IMG/VR virus record: IMGVR_UViG_3300045417_000364
Span: 1 to 50,704 of that record
Reading direction: 5' to 3' (one strand)
DNA from: a virus
Length of the DNA: 50,704 nt
Shown: positions 5,563 through 50,704 of the stretch, one piece after another
Layout: each line of letters begins with the position of its first letter
Numbering within the stretch: the stretch's first letter is position 1
Program-made: the position numbers and the translations under genes
Notes under the pieces: model-generated
What the model was told of the DNA's origin: nothing
Seen by the model: only the letters and a program-made list of their open reading frames with translations
Databases searched by the model: none

Positions 5563-5798
5563 AGGTAGCAGAAATTATAATGGAAGAAGGTAAGGCAAGT
5601 CAAAACTTATGTAAAAGTTCTAAGTCTAATAAGGATTTAGGAGCTAGTCAGTTAAGTAGTTGTATTAGTCAAGGGTTTCGTGCAAGGACGACTCAAAAAA
5701 AATTTACCATAAACAAGAAGCGTAAAAGTATAGCAGGGAAAAAAGTCAAGGGCGGCAATTACGGTGGCCCTTTACCAGTGTGGAAAGGCAACAGCTAA
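5559..5798 (+). CDS. Small basic phage protein with MKVAE leader
   Basis: A 79-aa lysine-rich protein, translated from ATG 5559, which overlaps the previous stop by 4 bases. It starts MKVAEIIMEEGK and continues with a Ser/Lys-rich, low-hydrophobicity body and a Gly-rich C-terminus (KGGNYGGPLPVW). The composition suggests DNA or virion interior binding. Same leader type as the genes at 5266 and 5798. Confidence 0.55.
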   Translation: MKVAEIIMEEGKASQNLCKSSKSNKDLGASQLSSCISQGFRARTTQKKFTINKKRKSIAGKKVKGGNYGGPLPVWKGNS

Positions 5799-6547
5799 TG
5801 CGTCTTAAGGAATTTGATATATCAGTACCCATAGGAAGTCGTGGACCAGATTGGGTAGACTTACAAAAAGCTTTTGTTAGTTTAGGTTATGACTTAAAAA
5901 AATTTGGTATTGATGGAACAGCCAATCCAGAACTCAGAAAAGTCATTTCTCAATTTGAACGTGATCATAAGTTAACTATCAATGGTAGTCCAGACGCAGA
6001 GATGGTCAACTTAATTAATAAGATCATGCGTGATAAAAATATAAATTTCCCAAAAAGTACGGAAGCCGATATTAAGCCCAAAGTTCAAACTCCTACTAAA
6101 TTCAATCCAAAGGCTTTGAAATCCAATCCAACAGATTTAGGATCAGTTGATCAAGCTATAAAATTCTTTACAAGCAAAGGCTATACTCCAGCGCAAACCG
6201 CTGGTATTATAGGAAATCTCAAAGCAGAAAGTGGCCCCAATCTAAATCATAGAGTAGGAGGCGATGGCGGCAGAGCTTATGGGATAGCACAATGGCACCC
6301 CCCAAGACAGGCAACATTCAAGCGTGTATTCGGTAAAGATATTAGAAATAGCAGTTTTCAAGAACAATTAGAATTTATAGATTGGGAATTAAAAAATACT
6401 GAACTTAGAGCAGGACAGATGCTAAGTAAAGCTAGAACACCAAAACAGGCTGCAATTATATTTGACAAATATTATGAACGTAGTGCAGGATTACATACCA
6501 AGCAAAGAGTAGCCTATGCGCAGGAAATAGAACCAAAGTTTACATAA
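5798..6547 (+). CDS. Tail lysozyme with N-terminal peptidoglycan-binding-like domain
   Basis: A 249-aa protein. Residues about 10-85 look like a PG_binding_1 helical domain (DWVDLQKAFVSLGYDL through a second helix pair). Residues about 115-245 match the phage tail lysozyme family: FFTSKGYTPAQTAGIIGNLKAESG places the likely catalytic Glu in NLKAESG, followed by AYGIAQWHPPRQATF. It would cut host peptidoglycan during entry. Start ATG 5798 overlaps the previous stop by one base (TAATG). The leader MRLKEF resembles the two preceding genes. Confidence 0.8.
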   Translation: MRLKEFDISVPIGSRGPDWVDLQKAFVSLGYDLKKFGIDGTANPELRKVISQFERDHKLTINGSPDAEMVNLINKIMRDKNINFPKSTEADIKPKVQTPTKFNPKALKSNPTDLGSVDQAIKFFTSKGYTPAQTAGIIGNLKAESGPNLNHRVGGDGGRAYGIAQWHPPRQATFKRVFGKDIRNSSFQEQLEFIDWELKNTELRAGQMLSKARTPKQAAIIFDKYYERSAGLHTKQRVAYAQEIEPKFT

Positions 6548-7095
6548 TGAATTTTACAGGTAAATTGCTAATAGCACCACCCAAAATTAAATCAGGATTT
6601 TGGTATAAGAGTGTAATTTTTATAACAGAAGATCATGAAAATGGAAGTATGGGACTCTTACTTAATAAAAGGAGTAGTATCTCTGTATCTGATTTCACAG
6701 ATCAAGTAGGTGAGAGATTAAATATACCAGGTTCAATTTACATAGGTGGACCGGTCAATATTAAGGCATTAACCATGTTACATAGTAATGATTGGGAATG
6801 CAATAATACCATGAAGATTAATAATATTTTAAGGCTTAGTAGTAGTGATGACCTTTTACCAAGATTGAGTGAAGGTGATGCCCCTAAATATTTCAGATTA
6901 TTCTTAGGATTATGTGGATGGAACCCATGTCAATTGCAAGAAGAATTCGATGGAGCGCCACCAAGAGATCGTAATAGTAGTTGGTTAATAGCCAATGCCA
7001 ATATTGATTTAGTTTTTCACCATGATTTAAAGGATCAATGGTTACAGTGTTTAGAAAAAAGTAGTAATGATTTTGTTCAATCAATTTTTGATTAA
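6547..7095 (+). CDS. AlgH/YqgE (DUF179) family protein
   Basis: A 182-aa protein, full length for the UPF0301/YqgE family. Recognisable segments are GKLLIAPPKI, SVIFITEDHENGSMGLLLNK, IYIGGPVNIKALTMLH and RLFLGLCGWNPCQLQEE. The bacterial family is associated with transcriptional control (AlgH in Pseudomonas) but has no firm biochemical role. In a phage it could alter host gene expression. It overlaps the lysozyme stop by one base. Confidence 0.85.
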   Translation: MNFTGKLLIAPPKIKSGFWYKSVIFITEDHENGSMGLLLNKRSSISVSDFTDQVGERLNIPGSIYIGGPVNIKALTMLHSNDWECNNTMKINNILRLSSSDDLLPRLSEGDAPKYFRLFLGLCGWNPCQLQEEFDGAPPRDRNSSWLIANANIDLVFHHDLKDQWLQCLEKSSNDFVQSIFD

Positions 7096-7103
7096 ACTTA
7101 GGA

Positions 7104-7619
7104 ATGATGGACACCCTAGTTCTTAATGCAGATGGTAATCCTTTAAGTTATCTACCTCTTAGCACTATAAACTGGCAAGAGGCCATTAGATATATAGTAT
7201 TGGATAAAGTTAGTGTAATTCAATGGCATGAGAATTGGATTGTGCGTAGTGTAAATTGGGAAACCTTTGTACCCAGTATTCTAATGCTAAAGGAATATAC
7301 TAAGCCAAAACACTATGTAAGATTTAGTAAAAGTAATGTCTTCTTACGAGATAATTATACTTGTCAATATTGTAACAAGCATCTTCAAAAGAAAGATTGC
7401 ACGTTAGATCATGTAAAGCCAGTTAGCCAGGGTGGTCGAACCGTATTTGAGAACACTGTTACTGCATGCGTTCTTTGTAACGCTACCAAGGGTAGTTATG
7501 ATAGGATGACACCAAAGATAAAACCGTATAAACCTGCTTACTTTGAATTGGTAAATAAGCGTAAAGTACTCCCATTCAATGTAAGGCAAAATTCTTGGCT
7601 GATATACATCAACTCTTAA
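7104..7619 (+). CDS. HNH endonuclease
   Basis: A 171-aa protein with an HNH module in its second half: two C-x-x-C zinc pairs (CQYC and CVLC) bracket LDHVKPVSQGG and ENTVTACVLCNATKG, which provide the catalytic His and Asn. The N-terminal half (VLNADGNPLSYLPLSTINWQ) is the usual partner domain of bacterial McrA-like HNH proteins. Either ATG 7104 or ATG 7107 could be used; the second has better spacing to AGGA. Could be a packaging-related, homing or host-degrading nuclease. Confidence 0.8.
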   Translation: MMDTLVLNADGNPLSYLPLSTINWQEAIRYIVLDKVSVIQWHENWIVRSVNWETFVPSILMLKEYTKPKHYVRFSKSNVFLRDNYTCQYCNKHLQKKDCTLDHVKPVSQGGRTVFENTVTACVLCNATKGSYDRMTPKIKPYKPAYFELVNKRKVLPFNVRQNSWLIYINS

Positions 7620-8467
7620 GAATACAATGGAATTTAACCGATCATTGTAATTTTGATTGCGACTATTGTCCTAGCATATTAAAGTCAGGACATACTCTAC
7701 TGCCTGATCCACAACTGTTCGCTAGGGGATTTGATCAAGTATATAACCATTTTGATAATTTTGAATTAAGTTTAATAGGTGGAGAACCTACATCATATGA
7801 AGGTTTGGATCTGTGTTTAACAAAGATTGGAAAAAAAGATTTTAATAAAAAGATTTGGCTTGAAACCAATGCCAGTAGAGAAAAGTCTTGGTGGGATAAA
7901 TTTGGATTTGTTTTTGATAATGTCGTTATAAGTTATCATATTCATTTTTTACCTGTAGAACATTTACTTTATGTTTTAGAAACTCTACAAAACAATAAAG
8001 TAAATTTTGTTATAAAATTACCAATTACTCCTGAGAATTGGGATGATGTAATCAAAAATAAACATAGCTTAGAAGCTAAAGGTTTCCATCCTAAAATACA
8101 ATTACTGTATCAAAATTTTACCAAGGGTAATAATAATTATTTGTCTTATAGCGAAGAACAAATAAAATTTTTTTATAAAGATAAAAACATTAGCGATGAT
8201 CAAATACCAGAACAAATTGAATACAAAAAAATACATAGGTTAAATGTATATCGTGGTAATATGTGCTGGGCTGGAGTAGATCAGTTTGTAATAGATAAGT
8301 ATGGTCATATATATAGGGGTTGGTGTGAACAGGGAGGATCTCTAGGTAATATATTTTATGACGAAATAACGTGGCCTAAGGATCCAATACTGTGTCAAAA
8401 ATCTCTGTGTGCAAATGGCTTTGATTTATTAGCTCGTAAGAGTGTAAATAGTTGGGGAAGATTATGA
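7595..8467 (+). CDS. Radical SAM protein with C-terminal cysteine-rich segment
   Basis: A 290-aa protein with CNFDCDYC near residue 20, the C-x3-C-x2-C [4Fe-4S]/SAM motif, then IGGEPT. The C-terminal part has further cysteines (MCWAG, RGWCEQ, ILCQKSLCA), like a short SPASM/Twitch region for an auxiliary cluster. No ATG is available; a TTG at 7595 inside the HNH gene gives a 25-base overlap and probably depends on translational coupling. The substrate, possibly a peptide, is unknown. The last 10 codons are duplicated 924 bases downstream. Confidence 0.75.
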   Translation: MADIHQLLRIQWNLTDHCNFDCDYCPSILKSGHTLLPDPQLFARGFDQVYNHFDNFELSLIGGEPTSYEGLDLCLTKIGKKDFNKKIWLETNASREKSWWDKFGFVFDNVVISYHIHFLPVEHLLYVLETLQNNKVNFVIKLPITPENWDDVIKNKHSLEAKGFHPKIQLLYQNFTKGNNNYLSYSEEQIKFFYKDKNISDDQIPEQIEYKKIHRLNVYRGNMCWAGVDQFVIDKYGHIYRGWCEQGGSLGNIFYDEITWPKDPILCQKSLCANGFDLLARKSVNSWGRL

Positions 8468-10249: not shown

Positions 10250-10690
10250 ATGGAAGAACTACATAAAGCAGCCAAAGTAGCATTTAGTACTACATTTGCT
10301 TTTTATTTGAAAGCACATAATTTTCATTGGAACGTAGAAGGGTCAGATTTTTTAGAATATCACGATCTATTTGGTAAAATATATGAAGAAGTATATGGTG
10401 CAATAGATGATTTTGCAGAAAAAATACGTGCCTTAGGAACCTATGTACCTGGAAGTTTTAGTAGATTTAGTATGCTTGCAATATTAGAGGATGAAACTGA
10501 TATATTACCTAAAGACCAAATGGTTGCCATGCTGTTAGAAGATAATGAAAAACTAATCAAGTTATTGAAATTAGTTTTTCAAATAAGTGAAAGCCATAAT
10601 GAATATGGCTTTAGTGATTTTATTGCTTCTAGAATTGATGCTCATAGCAAACATCGTTGGATGCTACGATCAAGCCTTATATCCGATTAA
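10250..10690 (+). CDS. dps: Dps-like ferritin family protein
   Basis: A 146-aa helical protein. [11 protein letters not shown], then [22 protein letters not shown], follow the Dps pattern; H26, H38, D53 and E57 fit four of the five ferroxidase positions of E. coli Dps, while the position of D67 is Gly42. The C-terminal helix [19 protein letters not shown] is also typical. Such proteins oxidise and store iron and protect DNA from Fenton chemistry. The gene follows the thermonuclease stop directly and overlaps the convergent hemA by 14 bases at its 3' end. Confidence 0.85.
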
Positions 10691-11873
10691 AAACATCCTT
10701 TAAAGCTATAATTAATTTTTCCATCATACCATCATTGTGGAACGGAGTGGGGGCAAAACGTAATCTTTCTGTGCCTTCTGCTACCGTAGGGTAATTTATA
10801 GGTTGCACATAAATGTTATGATCTTCAAGTAGAGCATCACTCATAGCTTTACAACGGACAGCATGTCCTACTAGCACAGGTACAATATGGGTACTAGTGT
10901 TCATCATTGGAAGGTTATTTTGTTTTAGTAATGTCTTTAGCCTATTTGCACGCTCTTGATGCTTTTCTCTAAGTTCATTATGTTCTTTCAGGTACTTAAC
11001 TGCACTCAACGCCCCTGCACAGGTAACTGGACTCATTGAAGTAGTAAAAATAAAACCATGACTTACACTACGTATTGCATCAATTACTTCACTATCTGCA
11101 GCGATATATCCGCCCTGGACTCCATAAGCTTTACCTAAAGTACCATTTACTATGTCTACACGATGTTGAAGTTTAAGTTCTTCCAATTTACCTGCACCAC
11201 GCTCGCCATATAAGCCCACAGCGTGTACTTCATCAATATAGGTAACAGCCTCATATTTGTCAGCAAGGTCACATATTTCCTCCATAACACTACAAACCCC
11301 ATCCATACTATATACGCTTTCAAATACTACACAAGGAGTTTCTCCAGCGTCTCTAATGGTTTTTAATATGCCCTCAAGATTTTCCATGTCATTGTGTTTG
11401 AATATAGTTTTTGGAGCTCTACTATGACTTATACCTATAATAAGACTATTATGATTTTTGCTATCACTAACAAAGTGTATATTAGGTATAATTTTACTCA
11501 ATGCGATAAGACTCCATTCATTAGCCACATAGGCACTTGTGAATAGTAATGCACGATCCTTACGATGTAAAAAGGCTAGTTCTGTTTCCAAAGCAACGTG
11601 ATATGTACTGGTCCCGCCTATGTTTCTAGTACCACCTGATCCTGAACCAGTTTGATCTAGTGCAGTATGCATTGCGTCTATGACAACTTTGTGCTGACCC
11701 ATTCCGAGGTAATCGTTAGAGCACCAGTTAACGATGTTCTTGATTGCGTATGGACCGTACCAAATTGCGTTGGGGAAACAACCCTTTTCACGGACTATAT
11801 TATTGAATACACGATATTTGCCTGAATTTTTTAAGTCGCCAATTAAGCGTCTGAAGTGGATTTTATCTATCAT
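10677..11873 (-). CDS. hemA: 5-aminolevulinate synthase (Shemin/C4 pathway)
   Basis: A full-length 398-aa PLP enzyme of the alpha-oxoamine synthase family. It condenses glycine with succinyl-CoA to 5-aminolevulinate, the first committed step of haem and other tetrapyrroles in alphaproteobacteria. [13 protein letters not shown] (77-89), [10 protein letters not shown] (D214) and [13 protein letters not shown] (PLP lysine K248) are present, and the ALAS-specific end [19 protein letters not shown] distinguishes it from KBL, AONS and SPT. It is the only minus-strand gene among virion-type plus-strand genes. A TATAAATA motif on the minus strand lies 9 bases before the ATG. Confidence 0.93.
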
Positions 11874-45506: not shown

Positions 45507-45866
45507 ATGATTAAAAAAGTTTTTATCGTTATTGTTGCATCCCTGTTAGGTACGTCTGCTCTGGCAGGCCCTCATCATGGGCATAGACATCATGGGCATA
45601 GACATCACGGACATGGACATCACAGTGGGTTACATCACGGACATGGACATTTACACAGCCCATCTATACATCATTGGGCTGTTCCTGCTATAATTGGAGG
45701 TGCAACTGTATATGCATTGACACGTCCAGATCCAGTAATAGTTCAGCGACCAATAATTGTTCAGCCAACCTTACAACCAGATCAAATTGTTATTGACGGG
45801 GTAGTATATACTAGACAGTTAATGATTATAAATGGAACTCAACAAGAGGTCCTAGTGAGACAATAA
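45507..45866 (+). CDS. Exported His-rich, probably metal-binding protein
   Basis: A 119-aa protein. Signal peptide MIKKVFIVIVASLLGTSALA is followed by GPHHGHRHHGHRHHGHGHH and more HG units (about 20 His in the first 50 mature residues), a hydrophobic stretch (AVPAIIGGATVYALT) and a C-terminal part with VIDGVVYTRQLM. Such tracts bind Zn, Ni, Cu or Fe in the periplasm. It sits directly before iscU. A membrane-tethered metal buffer is plausible. Confidence 0.7.
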   Translation: MIKKVFIVIVASLLGTSALAGPHHGHRHHGHRHHGHGHHSGLHHGHGHLHSPSIHHWAVPAIIGGATVYALTRPDPVIVQRPIIVQPTLQPDQIVIDGVVYTRQLMIINGTQQEVLVRQ

Positions 45867-46297
45867 TGGCCTACTCTGCACAAGTTATAGATCACTACGA
45901 GAATCCTAGAAATGTTGGTAGTTTTGATAAATCCCTATGCAATATTGGCACTGGTATGGTTGGTGCACCTGCTTGCGGGGATGTTATGAAATTACAAATT
46001 AAAGTAGATGAACTTACTGGTATAATTACAGATGCTCGCTTTAAGACGTATGGTTGTGGTAGTGCTATTGCCAGTAGTTCGTTGGTTACAGAGTGGGTTA
46101 AAGGTAAAACACTTGATCAAGCCAGTGAAATAAAAAATACTGATATAGCGCATGAATTATCTTTGCCTCCAGTTAAAATCCACTGTTCAATTTTGGCAGA
46201 AGATGCTATCAAGGCCGCAATAAAAGATTACCAATTAAAGCACAATCCTGTCAACACAAGTAAGGACTCAGGCGTTAATAATAATGTAGCAGTTTAA
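45866..46297 (+). CDS. iscU: IscU-like Fe-S cluster scaffold
   Basis: A 143-aa scaffold protein. The three cluster ligands are present at C37 (PACGD, with D39), C64 (YGCGSAIASSS) and C107 (HCSILAED), and LPPVK at 100-104 is the HscA recognition motif. It would assemble 2Fe-2S or 4Fe-4S clusters with host IscS and HscA/HscB. The last 20 residues are a flexible tail. The start overlaps the His-rich gene stop by one base. Confidence 0.92.
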   Translation: MAYSAQVIDHYENPRNVGSFDKSLCNIGTGMVGAPACGDVMKLQIKVDELTGIITDARFKTYGCGSAIASSSLVTEWVKGKTLDQASEIKNTDIAHELSLPPVKIHCSILAEDAIKAAIKDYQLKHNPVNTSKDSGVNNNVAV

Positions 46298-46324: not shown

Positions 46325-46540
46325 ATGAAATCAGTTCTAGCAATTATTTTGGCTGCGTTTACAGCCACTGCTTTTGCAGCAGATCATAAGAAAGACGATA
46401 AGAAGGCAGCTCCTGCCGCTGCTCCTGCCGCTGCTCCTGCCGCTGCTCCTGCCGCTGCTCCTGCCGCTGCTCCTGCCGCTGCTCCTGCCGCTGCTCCTGT
46501 GGTAAAGAAAGACGAAAAAAAAGTAGAAGCAAAGAAGTAA
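46325..46540 (+). CDS. Exported Ala/Pro-repeat protein
   Basis: A 71-aa protein with a signal peptide (MKSVLAIILAAFTATAFAAD) followed by seven near-perfect A-P-A-A repeats and a lysine-rich tail. It is probably a flexible periplasmic spacer. A heptamer A_AAA_AAA at 46516-46522 lies in the correct frame for a -1 slip into the open frame 46522-46746, giving a possible 140-aa fusion. Confidence 0.6.
   Translation: MKSVLAIILAAFTATAFAADHKKDDKKAAPAAAPAAAPAAAPAAAPAAAPAAAPAAAPVVKKDEKKVEAKK
46409..46498 (+). repeat. 12-bp tandem repeat encoding A-P-A-A
   Basis: GCTCCTGCCGCT is repeated about seven times without mismatches, a recently expanded array inside the exported protein gene. Confidence 0.85.
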
Positions 46541-46788: not shown

Positions 46789-47115
46789 ATGATTGAATTA
46801 ACAGCACAAGCAGCAGAAAAAGTAAAATTGTATTTAGAACGTAGGGGTAAGGGCATTGGTATTCGTGTAGGAGTAAAAACTACAGGTTGCTCTGGTTTGG
46901 CCTATGTATTGGAATATGTAGACAGCATAGAAACAACAATAAATCAATTTGTATATGATAATTATGGCGTAAAGATTTATGTAGATCCTCGTAGTTTGCC
47001 TTACTTAAATGGTTTAAAAATGGATTGGATTAGACAAGGAATTAATGAAGGATTTGAATTTATAAATCCAAATGAAAAAGATCGTTGTGGGTGTGGGGAA
47101 AGTTTTAGAATATGA
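46789..47115 (+). CDS. IscA/SufA/ErpA-type Fe-S carrier
   Basis: A 108-aa A-type carrier. The three ligands are C34 (TTGCSGLAYVLEYV) and C100/C102 (CGCGESF). GIGIRVGVKT and KIYVDPRSLPYLNG are typical. It would receive clusters from IscU and pass them to apo-proteins such as the phage radical SAM enzyme or host targets. An AATAAATA motif precedes it (46776-46783) after the strong terminator. The stop overlaps the next gene start by 4 bases (ATGA). Confidence 0.9.
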   Translation: MIELTAQAAEKVKLYLERRGKGIGIRVGVKTTGCSGLAYVLEYVDSIETTINQFVYDNYGVKIYVDPRSLPYLNGLKMDWIRQGINEGFEFINPNEKDRCGCGESFRI

Positions 47116-47635: not shown

Positions 47636-47664
47636 TTGACATCTTCAGTTAAAATAAATAGACT
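47636..47664 (+). promoter_or_regulatory. Sigma70-like promoter before 47686
   Basis: TTGACA (47636-47641), 17-base spacer and TAGACT (47659-47664, four of six matches). AATAAATA at 47653-47660 overlaps the -10 region, so early and late use are both possible. Confidence 0.45.
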
Positions 47665-47685: not shown

Positions 47686-47832
47686 GTGTATAGGTATAAA
47701 CTTTGGGTACGGATAAATGAGTACCAAACAGCGTATACAATTTTATACGCAGATAATGATTATGAAGCTAAAATGCTTGGTGAAGCACAATATGGCGTAG
47801 GTAATATTTTGAATTACACAAAGGAAGACTAA
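47686..47832 (+). CDS. Very small conserved phage protein (GTG start)
   Basis: A 48-aa protein from GTG 47686: YRYKLWVRINEYQTAYTIL, then YADNDYEAKMLGEAQYG and VGNILNYTKED. The Y-A-D-N-D-Y-x-A-K and A-Q-Y-G elements recur in tiny proteins of marine T4-like phages, from memory. Its stop overlaps the following ATG (TAATG), which supports coupling. Function unknown. Confidence 0.6.
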   Translation: MYRYKLWVRINEYQTAYTILYADNDYEAKMLGEAQYGVGNILNYTKED

Positions 47833-48227
47833 TGAGTATGCATCTTGAAGGCCCATGGCTTAGCACCACAGGCAAGCGTAAAGGTAAATTTAAATTCCGT
47901 AATGCTGATGAAGCCCGTAAGGAGAGGGAGCTCAAAGAGGATTGGCACAAACTCCAAAAGAAATATGGTATAGAACAAGAGCAACGGAAACAACGTTCTG
48001 CGTTGGATCGTAGTATATATCAACCTCCAAAACTTTTCTATAGGGGTATGGATGTCCCACGTATTCCAAGTCTTAACAGCGGTATAGATAGTGCTGCGGC
48101 TACTAAGGTGCCACCTAAGGTCTATACAGGAACAAAAATAAAAGGCATTGGTACCATGCATAAGAGTAACGCTGTGCCTATCTTCACAGATGATGAAGCT
48201 AAGGACATCGCCAATATGCGTAGATAA
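47832..48227 (+). CDS. Conserved T4-like phage protein of unknown function
   Basis: A 131-aa protein. GPWLSTTGKRKGKFKFRNA, a charged helix (REL...WHKLQKKYG) and the C-terminal GIGTMHKSNAVPIFTDDEA with NMRR are features I associate with a conserved hypothetical of marine T4-like phages. Basic N-terminus and acidic C-terminus; soluble. No catalytic motif seen. Confidence 0.6.
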   Translation: MSMHLEGPWLSTTGKRKGKFKFRNADEARKERELKEDWHKLQKKYGIEQEQRKQRSALDRSIYQPPKLFYRGMDVPRIPSLNSGIDSAAATKVPPKVYTGTKIKGIGTMHKSNAVPIFTDDEAKDIANMRR

Positions 48228-48259
48228 ATTTTGATGAGCAATTTAATTATTGAAATTAG

Positions 48260-48288
48260 TTGACAACCAGTTTAAATTGTCATATTAT
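48260..48288 (+). promoter_or_regulatory. Strong sigma70-like promoter for the envelope-protein operon
   Basis: TTGACA (48260-48265), exactly 17 bases, TATTAT (48283-48288). It lies about 50 bases before ATG 48338 and would drive the membrane protein and three exported proteins that follow. Confidence 0.7.
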
Positions 48289-48337
48289 TGCAATTGCAGT
48301 TGTAGTTTTTTTTAACCCCCCCTACTTAGAGGAATCT

Positions 48338-48466
48338 ATGTTTAAATTTGCAGCAGGAGTAATTTTTGGTATTGTTATTAGTACAATTGGTTTTGGCGGT
48401 TTGGCAAATATCGGCGACAAAAGTATTCAAAAAGTACAGGAAGTCGCCAAGGAGGTTGCACAATGA
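48338..48466 (+). CDS. Very small membrane protein
   Basis: A 42-aa protein from ATG 48338 (AGAGGA ribosome site): MFKFAAGVIFGIVISTIGFG is one membrane segment, followed by the amphipathic helix SIQKVQEVAKEVAQ. It overlaps the next lipoprotein gene by 4 bases. Function unknown; it may anchor or regulate the exported proteins behind it. Confidence 0.55.
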   Translation: MFKFAAGVIFGIVISTIGFGGLANIGDKSIQKVQEVAKEVAQ

Positions 48467-48930
48467 AACGTTTTTTACTTATCCCAGCATTTGCCGTTCT
48501 TACTGCCTGTGGTGGAATGGAAAAAGTTCCTGAACGTACTAGTTATGCTCAACCAGATTGGTATGGAAAGTGCGCTCAAGAAGGTCGTGAAGGTTGGTTT
48601 TGGATGGCTAAAGATTTTGTCTATGCTTGCGGAGCAGGGGAAAGTCAATTTGCACAAGCCGCAGAAGAACAGATGTATGCCATTGCTCTTAACAACTTTG
48701 CCAAACGTATTAATGGACGTGTTAATAGTGAGACCAGTATTGATATGACTGACAAGAAACGTACTTCACGTACTAATATCAGTTATAAAGTCACTGACAC
48801 TACTGTAGTTGAACATCTCCAAAAGGAGCAAGGTCGTTTTACCATGGGTGGGCGCCATTATACATTTGTACGTCTAAAAATGCGCAAGGAAGTTTTCGAT
48901 CGTTTAGTTCAGGAAAATCGTGACCAATGA
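48463..48930 (+). CDS. LPP20-like lipoprotein
   Basis: A 155-aa lipoprotein: signal MKRFLLIPAFAVLTAC with lipobox LTAC and lipidation at C16. The mature part (FVYACGAGESQFAQAAEEQM through helical and strand segments to YTFVRLKMRKEVFDRLVQ) resembles the LPP20-type domain seen in bacterial outer-membrane lipoproteins. Such a domain is unexpected in a phage and could alter the host surface after entry. Confidence 0.7.
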   Translation: MKRFLLIPAFAVLTACGGMEKVPERTSYAQPDWYGKCAQEGREGWFWMAKDFVYACGAGESQFAQAAEEQMYAIALNNFAKRINGRVNSETSIDMTDKKRTSRTNISYKVTDTTVVEHLQKEQGRFTMGGRHYTFVRLKMRKEVFDRLVQENRDQ

Positions 48931-49262
48931 GACCTTTACAATTAGGTCTAGTAGTATTGGGTGCGGTATATTTGGCGGGGTGCGCTAGTACCCCTCCTAA
49001 AACTGCCCGGCAGTTCTGCTATACAAGCAAAGATATTACAGTACAAGATGGTGAAAAAGTTAAAAGCCAAACTCAAGTACGTTGTAATGATGATCCAATA
49101 GAAACTATACCTATTAAGAAAATGGGTGTAAGTCCAAAATGTTTTGAAAATCCTTATCAACAGCGTTTGCCTAACGGGCGTTTAGTGGAAGGAATTAACT
49201 ATGTTTGCCAAAAAAGGGATGGTAGTTGGGAAATTATTGACAGCCGCGGCATTAATCGTTAG
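48927..49262 (+). CDS. Small lipoprotein
   Basis: A 111-aa lipoprotein: signal MRPLQLGLVVLGAVYLAGC with lipobox LAGC and lipidation at C19, then ASTPPKTARQF. The mature part has cysteines at intervals and a C-terminal RDGSWEIIDSRGINR. Start overlaps the previous stop by 4 bases. No family recognised. Likely sent to the envelope together with its neighbours. Confidence 0.65.
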   Translation: MRPLQLGLVVLGAVYLAGCASTPPKTARQFCYTSKDITVQDGEKVKSQTQVRCNDDPIETIPIKKMGVSPKCFENPYQQRLPNGRLVEGINYVCQKRDGSWEIIDSRGINR

Positions 49263-49593
49263 TACACCAGTTGAGGCACAATTGCGCTGGAGTGAAAGTG
49301 CTTATAGTATCATAAACTCATTTAATAAATTCTTTGATAAGTTGAGTGAGGGTGATGTAAGAAAGAATACTCAGGCTATATTAACGGCTGTGACTCACCT
49401 TAATAATGGAGAATTTGTACGCTGGTACAGTGATGATAGTTATAATCACGGCCTTGTAGAAATTATTGCTACTAGTAGATTAAGTGGTAAATTATGTCGT
49501 AGAGTATACAGCACTGTTTGGACAGAAAAAAGTTCAGAAAATAAGGAATTTTGGGGATGTTTGAATGCTGATGGAAGCTGGAGTTTTTTTTAG
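49201..49593 (+). CDS. Exported protein with surface-antigen-like C-terminus
   Basis: A 130-aa protein. Signal peptide (VVGKLLTAAALIVSTPVEA) predicted before QLRWSESA. The C-terminal half has YSDDSYNHGLVEIIATS, KLCRRVYSTVWTEK and WGCLNADGSWSF, resembling the C-terminal cysteine pair and Gly-Ser-Trp end of the rickettsial 17-kDa surface-antigen type. ATG 49201 has a GGAAGGAA ribosome site and overlaps the previous gene by 62 bases; ATG 49219 is an alternative. Confidence 0.65.
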   Translation: MFAKKGMVVGKLLTAAALIVSTPVEAQLRWSESAYSIINSFNKFFDKLSEGDVRKNTQAILTAVTHLNNGEFVRWYSDDSYNHGLVEIIATSRLSGKLCRRVYSTVWTEKSSENKEFWGCLNADGSWSFF

Positions 49594-49643
49594 GTAGTAA
49601 ATATATTTAATATATGGAGGATATTGATTAACTAAATATCTTT

Positions 49644-50704
49644 ATGATTCTAGCGTTGTTAACATTTTTTACTGGTATAGCAATATCAACGATTGCTATC
49701 TATTATTCTGTATTAGGGCTGGCTAGCATATTTAGTGCTGCTGCTTTTAGTGTTGTTATAATGGGTACAGTACTAGAAGTTGGCAAATTAGTCACAGCAT
49801 GGTGGCTTAAGGCTAATTGGTATAAAACCCCGTGGACCTTAAAAGGATATCTTACAATAGCTGTAATTACCCTAATGCTAATTACCAGTATGGGAATATT
49901 TGGCTATCTAAGTAAGGCTCATAGTGATCAAAATTTAGTTAGTGGTGATATACAGGCTAAATTAATCCTTATTGACGAAAAAATCAAAGTAAGTAGGGAG
50001 AATATTGACTCTGCTAGAAATCAATTAAAACAATTGGATGCTGCTGTAGATCAAATTATTAGTCGTACCACAAGTGAACAAGGTGCAGCAAGATCAGACC
50101 AAATACGTCGTAGTCAAGCCAAAGAAAGGGCAAGACTGTTTAAAGAAATTGAAACTGAGCAAAGCACTATTCAAAAATTAAATGAAGAAGCTGCTCCAAT
50201 ACGTGCTGAAGTGCGTGCGGTAGAGGCAGAAGTTGGTCCAATCAAATACATAGCAGCTTTGATCTACGGTGACAACCCAGATCAAAATTTACTAGAAAAA
50301 TCAGTAGTTTGGGTAATATTAACTATTGTTTTTGTTTTTGATCCCTTGGCAGTTTTACTATTATTAGCTAGTCAAATGAGTTTTCAATGGGCGCTCCAAG
50401 AGCGTGATGAAAAAAGACTATTGGACAATGGTAAAGAAAAAATGCGCCCTAAGAGCAAAGATGAAGAACCTCCTAAACATGAACAAGATAATGGCCCAGT
50501 AACAGAGCAACAGCTTGAACAAATTAAAGAATCTGCTGCTAAACCAGTTGAACCATCTATAGTGAAAAGTTATGTTTACAAGCCAGCTGTATTCTTCAAA
50601 AGGCATTCTCAACCTCAAGAGGAAACTGCGCCTGTTGAACAATCTAAGGTAGAAGTAAAACTAGAAGAACCTATTGGCACACAAGATAAGAATAATCAAC
50701 CAGT
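49644..50704 (+). CDS. Large membrane plus coiled-coil protein, cut by window edge
   Basis: An open frame from ATG 49644 (MILALLTFFTGIAISTIAIY) to the window end, at least 353 codons. It has four hydrophobic segments (residues about 1-20, 25-45, 75-95 and near 220-240), two coiled-coil stretches in between (IDEKIKVSRENIDSARNQL; ETEQSTIQKLNEE) and a Pro/Glu-rich C-terminus (TAPVEQSKVEV). The head (FSVVIMGTVLEVGKLVTAW) looks like a coiled-coil membrane protein annotated in many T4-like phages. Possible tail or membrane-contact protein; no firm function. Confidence 0.65.
   Translation, partial: MILALLTFFTGIAISTIAIYYSVLGLASIFSAAAFSVVIMGTVLEVGKLVTAWWLKANWYKTPWTLKGYLTIAVITLMLITSMGIFGYLSKAHSDQNLVSGDIQAKLILIDEKIKVSRENIDSARNQLKQLDAAVDQIISRTTSEQGAARSDQIRRSQAKERARLFKEIETEQSTIQKLNEEAAPIRAEVRAVEAEVGPIKYIAALIYGDNPDQNLLEKSVVWVILTIVFVFDPLAVLLLLASQMSFQWALQERDEKRLLDNGKEKMRPKSKDEEPPKHEQDNGPVTEQQLEQIKESAAKPVEPSIVKSYVYKPAVFFKRHSQPQEETAPVEQSKVEVKLEEPIGTQDKNNQP

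Follow-up and report, generated by a model that had tools for sequence, protein, structure and literature searches.

Gene organization of the locus

The window, by which we mean the whole stretch of DNA analysed, is a virus record of 50,704 bases, and close to its right-hand end the plus strand carries a module of four small genes. The 5′ edge of the module is a σ70-type promoter, TTGACA-N17-TATTAT, at 48260-48288 (11/12 matches), and behind it follow tm42 (48338-48466), encoding a 42-aa protein with a single hydrophobic stretch; LPP (48463-48930), encoding a 155-aa LPP20-like lipoprotein with the lipobox LTAC; lip2 (48927-49262), encoding a 111-aa lipoprotein with conserved cysteines and without a confident family or fold match; and anti17 (49201-49593), encoding a 130-aa exported protein that appears distantly related to PF16998 (17-kDa surface antigen). 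Neighboring genes overlap, tm42 and LPP by 4 nt, LPP and lip2 by 4 nt, and lip2 and anti17 by 62 nt. Directly upstream of the promoter region lies g47832 (47832-48227), which matches phrog_27048, a family of unknown function, with an E value of 3.8e-30.

A preliminary description of this DNA had placed a near-perfect promoter of this sequence and four overlapping genes at 48260-49593, the first gene encoding a 42-aa membrane protein and the third a second lipoprotein, and on each of these points it proved correct. What it overlooked was M353 (49644-50704, plus strand), the usual downstream neighbor of the module, whose product is a membrane protein, coiled-coil-like in its middle part, and which is cut by the end of the window, together with the lysis-type genes that lie next door in relatives.

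The dN/dS values of the module genes were 0.05-0.28 in the 18 gene pairs for which the ratio could be computed, one further pair being saturated. Mean column identity was 69% for LPP, 44% for lip2 and 38% for anti17, from row sets that differ between the proteins.

Occurrence of the module

A pattern scan of IMG/VR found relatives of LPP in 176 stretches, and a degenerate DNA pattern for LPP found at least 120. The comparisons below use the best 80 of the 176, many of which are near-copies of one another, and a held-out set of 49 of 78 new loci among the matches listed, whose LPP is not identical to the earlier ones, close kinship being possible.

Among the 80 LPP loci, profile HMMs detected lip2 in 78, anti17 in 76 and M353 in 71, and in the testable held-out loci all three were present on the same strand (lip2 in 40/40, anti17 in 35/35 and M353 in 26/26). 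LPP stands without lip2, anti17 and M353 in locus L053, and M353 is missing from L006, in both cases on contigs that continue; the contigs of L013 and L072 end too early for M353 to be called, and the remaining misses fall at contig ends. The module is therefore conserved across many uncultivated phages, and its genes stay together. On the 354-kb contig of L053, LPP is accompanied by tm42 and sits beside further lipoprotein-like ORFs. Locus L013 has a gene at 6514-7725 between LPP and lip2 that by eye looks like a cysteine desulfurase, on a contig that also carries relatives of IscU and IscA.

While the module is recurrent in uncultivated phage contigs, tblastn (E ≤ 0.01) against 50,697 deposited phage records returned no relative of LPP and none of anti17, and the module has thus probably escaped study. 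A single scan of a genome collection with two patterns found no cellular relative of LPP, and among the matches listed in a search of the open literature no title or beginning of an abstract described an LPP20 protein in a phage.

Elsewhere in the window, an IscU gene at 45866-46297 scored over the NCBIfam cut-off and had BLAST relatives in 39/80 loci, and an IscA-type gene at 46789-47115, with relatives in 38/80, scored just under the IscA equivalog cut-off and over that of TIGR00049. Between them, at 46325-46540, a small exported-looking protein consisting mostly of AAAP repeats is encoded, with BLAST relatives in 5/80 loci. The 80 cellular IscU matches considered, of 593, came mostly from Burkholderiales and in part from Gammaproteobacteria, at 75-85% identity, which gives a hint, and only a hint, of a Burkholderiales host. 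The minus strand encodes a 5-aminolevulinate synthase at 10677-11873 (TIGR01821, 561.7 bits, cut-off 338.55), and L015 ends with what by eye looks like a similar gene. Burkholderiales as a rule take the other heme route and not that through 5-aminolevulinate synthase.

LPP and the LPP20 family

The lipobox pattern was found in all 80 LPP sequences, with S, G or A and never Asp at position +2. According to the enterobacterial sorting rule such residues point to the outer membrane, and this is thus the location indicated for LPP.

The preliminary description had called LPP an LPP20-like lipoprotein, and at the level of profiles the likeness was borne out. With a profile of 26 cellular LPP20 domains, all 91 LPP ORFs (including some from shared contigs, and leaving out the short or weak matches L249-L251, L272, L274 and L275) ranked above every other of 15,865 ORFs; 77/91 scored E ≤ 0.01, and the first ORF other than LPP appeared at E 0.26. 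Comparison of LPP with LPP20 by hhalign gave a probability of 54%, as against at most 1.2% for five controls. The curated Pfam family was not reached, however: the window LPP had no match to PF02169 at E ≤ 1, and of 24 LPP relatives three matched, the best at E 0.031 and none at the gathering cut-off. By profile, then, LPP is a distant LPP20/FlgP relative that falls below the Pfam cut-off.

Likeness to the SHS2-like α/β fold of Lpp20 and FlgP is more weakly supported. The AlphaFold model of LPP had a pLDDT of 63.9 and a pTM of 0.56, with residues 89-110 below 50. Its top Foldseek match was 9hmf_A, a flagellar scaffold chain of C. jejuni that we take to be FlgP (E 0.0095, probability 0.91, TM 0.32/0.43), and the top VIA match was H. 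pylori Lpp20 (5ok8_A, rmsd 3.6, 88 residues aligned) with a Z score of 7.1, the next row scoring 5.2 and values of 7-8 being common in unmatched models. A conserved stretch of LPP, residues 84-118, sits where FlgP has its ring-forming β-hairpin, which the FlgP report describes as inserted after a helix (PMC12222027).

The other products of the module

The relatives of lip2 carried the lipobox pattern in 75 of 78 cases, never with Asp at +2, in agreement with its description as a lipoprotein. Its predicted fold (pLDDT 78.2, pTM 0.46) had no convincing match in fold searches, the best Z score being 4.0. At the sequence level lip2 matched an Rz-like spanin family with E 0.006 over residues 9-49, which is mostly the signal region, and the Cor family phrog_1119 with E 0.11 over residues 8-50.

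For anti17, which had been described as a surface-antigen-like exported protein, the resemblance to PF16998 was recovered with E 5.5e-4 over profile positions 14-109 of 116, while the score of 20.2 bits remained under the cut-off of 26.6. Of 35 anti17 relatives 19 matched PF16998 at E ≤ 0.1, the best at 1.3e-5, and in a set of 14 records none exceeded the cut-off and six reached E ≤ 0.001. An A.A-type cleavage site was present in 52/76 anti17 sequences and the lipobox pattern in 17/76, so that pattern is not fully specific; most members look secreted rather than lipoproteins. We considered a common origin of lip2 and anti17 from their shared C-terminal 'C..dG.W', and make no such claim since profile comparison gave it a probability of 2.7%.

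Relatives of tm42 were found by BLAST in 36/80 loci, with dN/dS of 0.23 against L003 and 0.15 against L006. Sequence searches of Pfam, PHROGs, NCBIfam, PADLOC and PDB, in combinations that varied with the protein, assigned none of the module proteins to a family with confidence; PADLOC returned nothing for any of the four, and a structural-family match was found for none of them.

Gene neighborhood, gain and loss

In most relatives genes for a holin-like protein and a SleB-type cell-wall hydrolase occupy the junction that corresponds to 48228-48259 of the window (plus strand); the window lacks the two, and only the promoter region lies between g47832 and tm42. In 68/80 loci a hydrolase related to that of L005 or L028 is encoded on the strand of LPP, 74-1053 nt ahead of it; the L005 enzyme matched PF07486 (Hydrolase_2) with E 4e-22. 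The hydrolase was followed in 66 of the 68 by a gene for a hydrophobic protein of about 105 aa, which we call holin-like from its hydrophobic pattern, no family having matched. In L069, L073 and L075 a glucosaminidase-type enzyme takes the place of the hydrolase (PF01832, shown for L069), and in 9/80 loci neither enzyme was present in the stretch examined, L024 being cut at that end. Such an enzyme lay within 1.3 kb upstream in 36/42 testable held-out loci. Relatives of g47832 were present in 76/80 loci, and in L168 a protein that resembles it by eye is encoded immediately ahead of M353.

In the window itself, tblastn with the hydrolase and the holin-like gene gave matches no better than E 2.3, and neither PF07486 nor PF01832 matched the window fragment; a Phage_lysozyme2 gene lies elsewhere, at 5780-6547. 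The 354-kb contig has LPP near 30 kb and its sole PF07486 match some 230 kb away, at 264 kb, and two further LPP contigs of 102 kb and 72 kb, possibly fragments, had no PF07486 match.

M353 is more widely distributed than LPP, with at least 590 confirmed stretches; of the best 80 of these, 11 have LPP and 69 do not. Eleven of the 69 have the hydrolase and the holin-like gene, M353 following immediately in L100, and a lipobox scan near M353 found no lipoprotein gene in these 11 loci and a candidate in seven of the other 58. A tree of 71 hydrolases, 59 with LPP and 12 without, required five changes in the presence of LPP, and well-supported branches impose at least four of these; confidence is lower at a few very long branches. 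The tree was built from non-identical hydrolases of at least 150 aa.

We also considered M353 as a gene of lysis only, and dropped this since in three large phages, XacN1, RAS14 and SCTP-2, its neighbors are of replication type or carry no annotation. No SleB-type match was present in the stretch examined in 56 of the best 80 M353 loci, and a glucosaminidase was present in none of the 80. Relatives of M353 lie directly after a glucosaminidase gene in Pelagibacter phage Mosig and four genes after a chitinase-holin pair in Flavobacterium phage immuto.

Transcription signals

In the region 45.0-50.7 kb of the window the module promoter is the best of 25 promoter-like sites, and given that 21.7 ± 5.1 are expected by chance, it proves little by itself. 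Among relatives, a σ70-like site with at most 2/12 mismatches was found within 300 nt upstream of LPP in 75/79 loci (L024 was excluded because its upstream sequence is too short), compared with 8.75/79 in dinucleotide shuffles. Dereplication gave 35/38 at 90% LPP identity and 13/14 at 80%, and held-out loci gave 45/46, compared with 20% of random places. The distance of the site upstream of LPP is in most loci either about 180-230 nt, enough to accommodate a tm42-type gene, or about 60-80 nt; in L053 the 300-nt region ahead of LPP holds no promoter-like site with at most two mismatches. A host-type promoter of the module's own is thus real and conserved.

There was no excess of σ70-like sites upstream of lip2, anti17, M353, iscU, iscA or the hydrolase, and little upstream of the holin-like gene (14/66, 8.4 expected), whereas the excess upstream of g47832 was clear (60/73, 11.0 expected). 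In the window a site of this kind, TTGACA-N17-TAGACT, lies upstream of g47832 at 47636-47664 and overlaps AATAAATA at 47653. Since the hydrolase-holin unit also stands behind a σ70-like promoter, a host-type promoter by itself does not separate a role in exclusion from one in lysis.

The octamer NATAAATA, which we read as a T4-type late transcription motif, is concentrated at gene starts in the window: of 20 plus-strand sites, 12 are no more than 80 nt ahead of the start of a listed ORF (46 starts, a zone of 7.3% of the strand), six of them in the structural block and the others ahead of iscA and further non-structural genes. Upstream of LPP it was absent from 79 loci (4.6 expected) and from 46 held-out loci, and no late motif lay within 250 nt of the hydrolase or holin-like gene. 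Exact TATAAATA was also absent from the window and from 26 loci when up to 1300 nt ahead of LPP were searched; that search was too narrow, NATAAATA being the motif enriched at gene starts.

M353 has a different signature. Exact NATAAATA starts within 30 nt before its ATG in 46/71 loci with LPP and in 29/69 without, compared with 0.7% of random ATGs, and 72 of these 75 motifs are 12-16 nt before the ATG. The motif often overlaps the stop codon of anti17, in varying codon contexts, and in the window ACTAAATA, with one mismatch to the motif, lies at 49631-49638 (plus strand), 13 nt ahead of the M353 start. The spacing known from T4 would put the start of the transcript at or near the M353 ATG, so that the message would be nearly leaderless. 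These signals suggest early expression for the module and late expression for M353; the two probably belong to separate transcription classes, which makes a right-hand border of the module at 49593 sensible.

Morons are gained or lost as units with a promoter of their own. The module seems moron-like in this respect: it has a promoter to itself and is acquired or lost as a whole.

Function of the module

The preliminary description had proposed a set of exported envelope proteins behind a host-type promoter. The export signals and the promoter stood, and the promoter region lacks a T4-type late motif; that the same promoter class also serves the hydrolase-holin unit qualifies the reading. Its proposal that such a set could block superinfection or change the surface of the infected cell is weighed here against three others.

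We favor, at a probability of roughly 0.45, the reading that the module is an exclusion or receptor-change cassette acting on the infected cell's outer membrane, a reading for which we infer timing, localization and exclusion alike. The σ70 RNA polymerase of the host would transcribe the cassette, probably early, and its products would reach the infected cell's envelope: LPP, with its LPP20/SHS2-like character, and lip2 would become outer-membrane lipoproteins, anti17 would go to the periplasm or the surface, and tm42 to the inner membrane. Surface receptors altered or jammed in this way would cause further phages, sister progeny included, to fail to adsorb or inject. The export signals, the host-type promoter that the module has to itself, its gain and loss, and its survival apart from the lysis pair fit a cassette that modifies the host. 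A precedent is the outer-membrane lipoprotein Llp of T5, which jams FhuA from the periplasmic side, and exclusion proteins are expressed early by many phages, as set out in PMC9586334.

Several observations speak against exclusion. The hydrolase is close upstream in 68/80 loci, as expected of a lysis accessory, and its unit has a σ70-like promoter as well, that of g47832. Homology to a proven exclusion protein was not seen beyond the weak match of lip2 to Cor, and PADLOC was empty for all four proteins. LPP is also highly conserved, whereas receptor-directed proteins are often variable.

The frequency of the hydrolase and holin-like gene upstream of the module makes a role in lysis a serious rival to a block of superinfection, and the main one. 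The module would then complete the hydrolase-holin cassette, LPP and lip2 disrupting or weakening the outer membrane in the manner of spanins, and tm42 or M353 would serve as their partner in the inner membrane. The constant strand and short distance of the hydrolase, the substitution by a glucosaminidase in three loci, the position of M353 relatives in Mosig and immuto, and the spanin match of lip2 all agree with this. That match, however, covers mostly the signal region. As an i-spanin tm42, at 42 aa, is seemingly too short, and M353 has a coiled-coil-like part but is found without LPP in 69 of its best 80 loci. The hydrolase-holin pair occurs with M353 in 11 loci that lack both the module and a nearby lipoprotein gene, though seven other module-less loci have a candidate for one; nine LPP loci have neither enzyme in the stretch examined; LPP is distant from the SleB-type gene on the 354-kb contig; and a separate promoter stands between the pair and the module. 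We regard a lysis accessory as a real possibility, though less likely than exclusion.

The best fold matches of LPP, to the presumed FlgP chain and to Lpp20, bring in another function, in which LPP would assemble beneath the outer membrane and reinforce it, preserving the barrier or delaying lysis from without during the stress of infection. According to two reports, FlgP makes concentric rings beneath the outer membrane (PMC12222027), and the barrier is protected by FapH, a lipoprotein whose gene shares an operon with flgP, while H. pylori Lpp20 itself is dispensable for it (PMC11756786). Given this last observation, and a modest LPP model in which the possible hairpin at 89-110 is uncertain, reinforcement seems improbable. 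More speculative still, LPP might polymerize as FlgP does, forming rings or a lattice beneath the outer membrane that, together with lip2 and anti17, would shut the surface to rivals or hold the membrane until lysis; we know of no phage that builds such an outer-membrane scaffold, and would give the idea long odds.

That the exported proteins are components of the virion or tail is very improbable: a gene block that by eye looks structural, with one PHROG virion match, lies in the same window, but the proteins carry lipoboxes and signal peptides, have their own promoter without the late motif, and have no structural-family match.

Through the module an LPP20/FlgP-like lipoprotein becomes linked to phage infection, and its envelope proteins adjoin lysis genes in most relatives yet keep a separate promoter. 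Its four small genes can be expressed directly in assays of exclusion, outer-membrane integrity and lysis.

Comparison with known systems

With the LPP20 lipoproteins (PF02169; H. pylori Lpp20, FlgP) LPP shares the lipobox and a relation at profile level, but it scores below the Pfam cut-off, is encoded by phages, travels with lip2 and anti17, and had no cellular relative of its own in the one two-pattern scan of the genome collection. Similarly, anti17 aligns with most of the 17-kDa surface antigen profile (PF16998, positions 14-109 of 116) while remaining under the curated cut-off, and its members mostly look secreted rather than lipidated. The lipoproteins of the module adjoin hydrolase and holin-like genes, as those of spanins and lysis cassettes do, in most relatives though not in the window; they differ in that an i-spanin/o-spanin pair was not recognized, in having their own promoter, and in their absence from certain phages in which the hydrolase-holin pair is present. 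From the superinfection-exclusion lipoproteins T5 Llp, Cor and TP-J34 Ltp the module differs in comprising several proteins instead of one, and the only sequence match seen was the weak one of lip2 to Cor (E 0.11); like them, it encodes small phage lipoproteins, and it does so as a unit of its own behind an early-type promoter.
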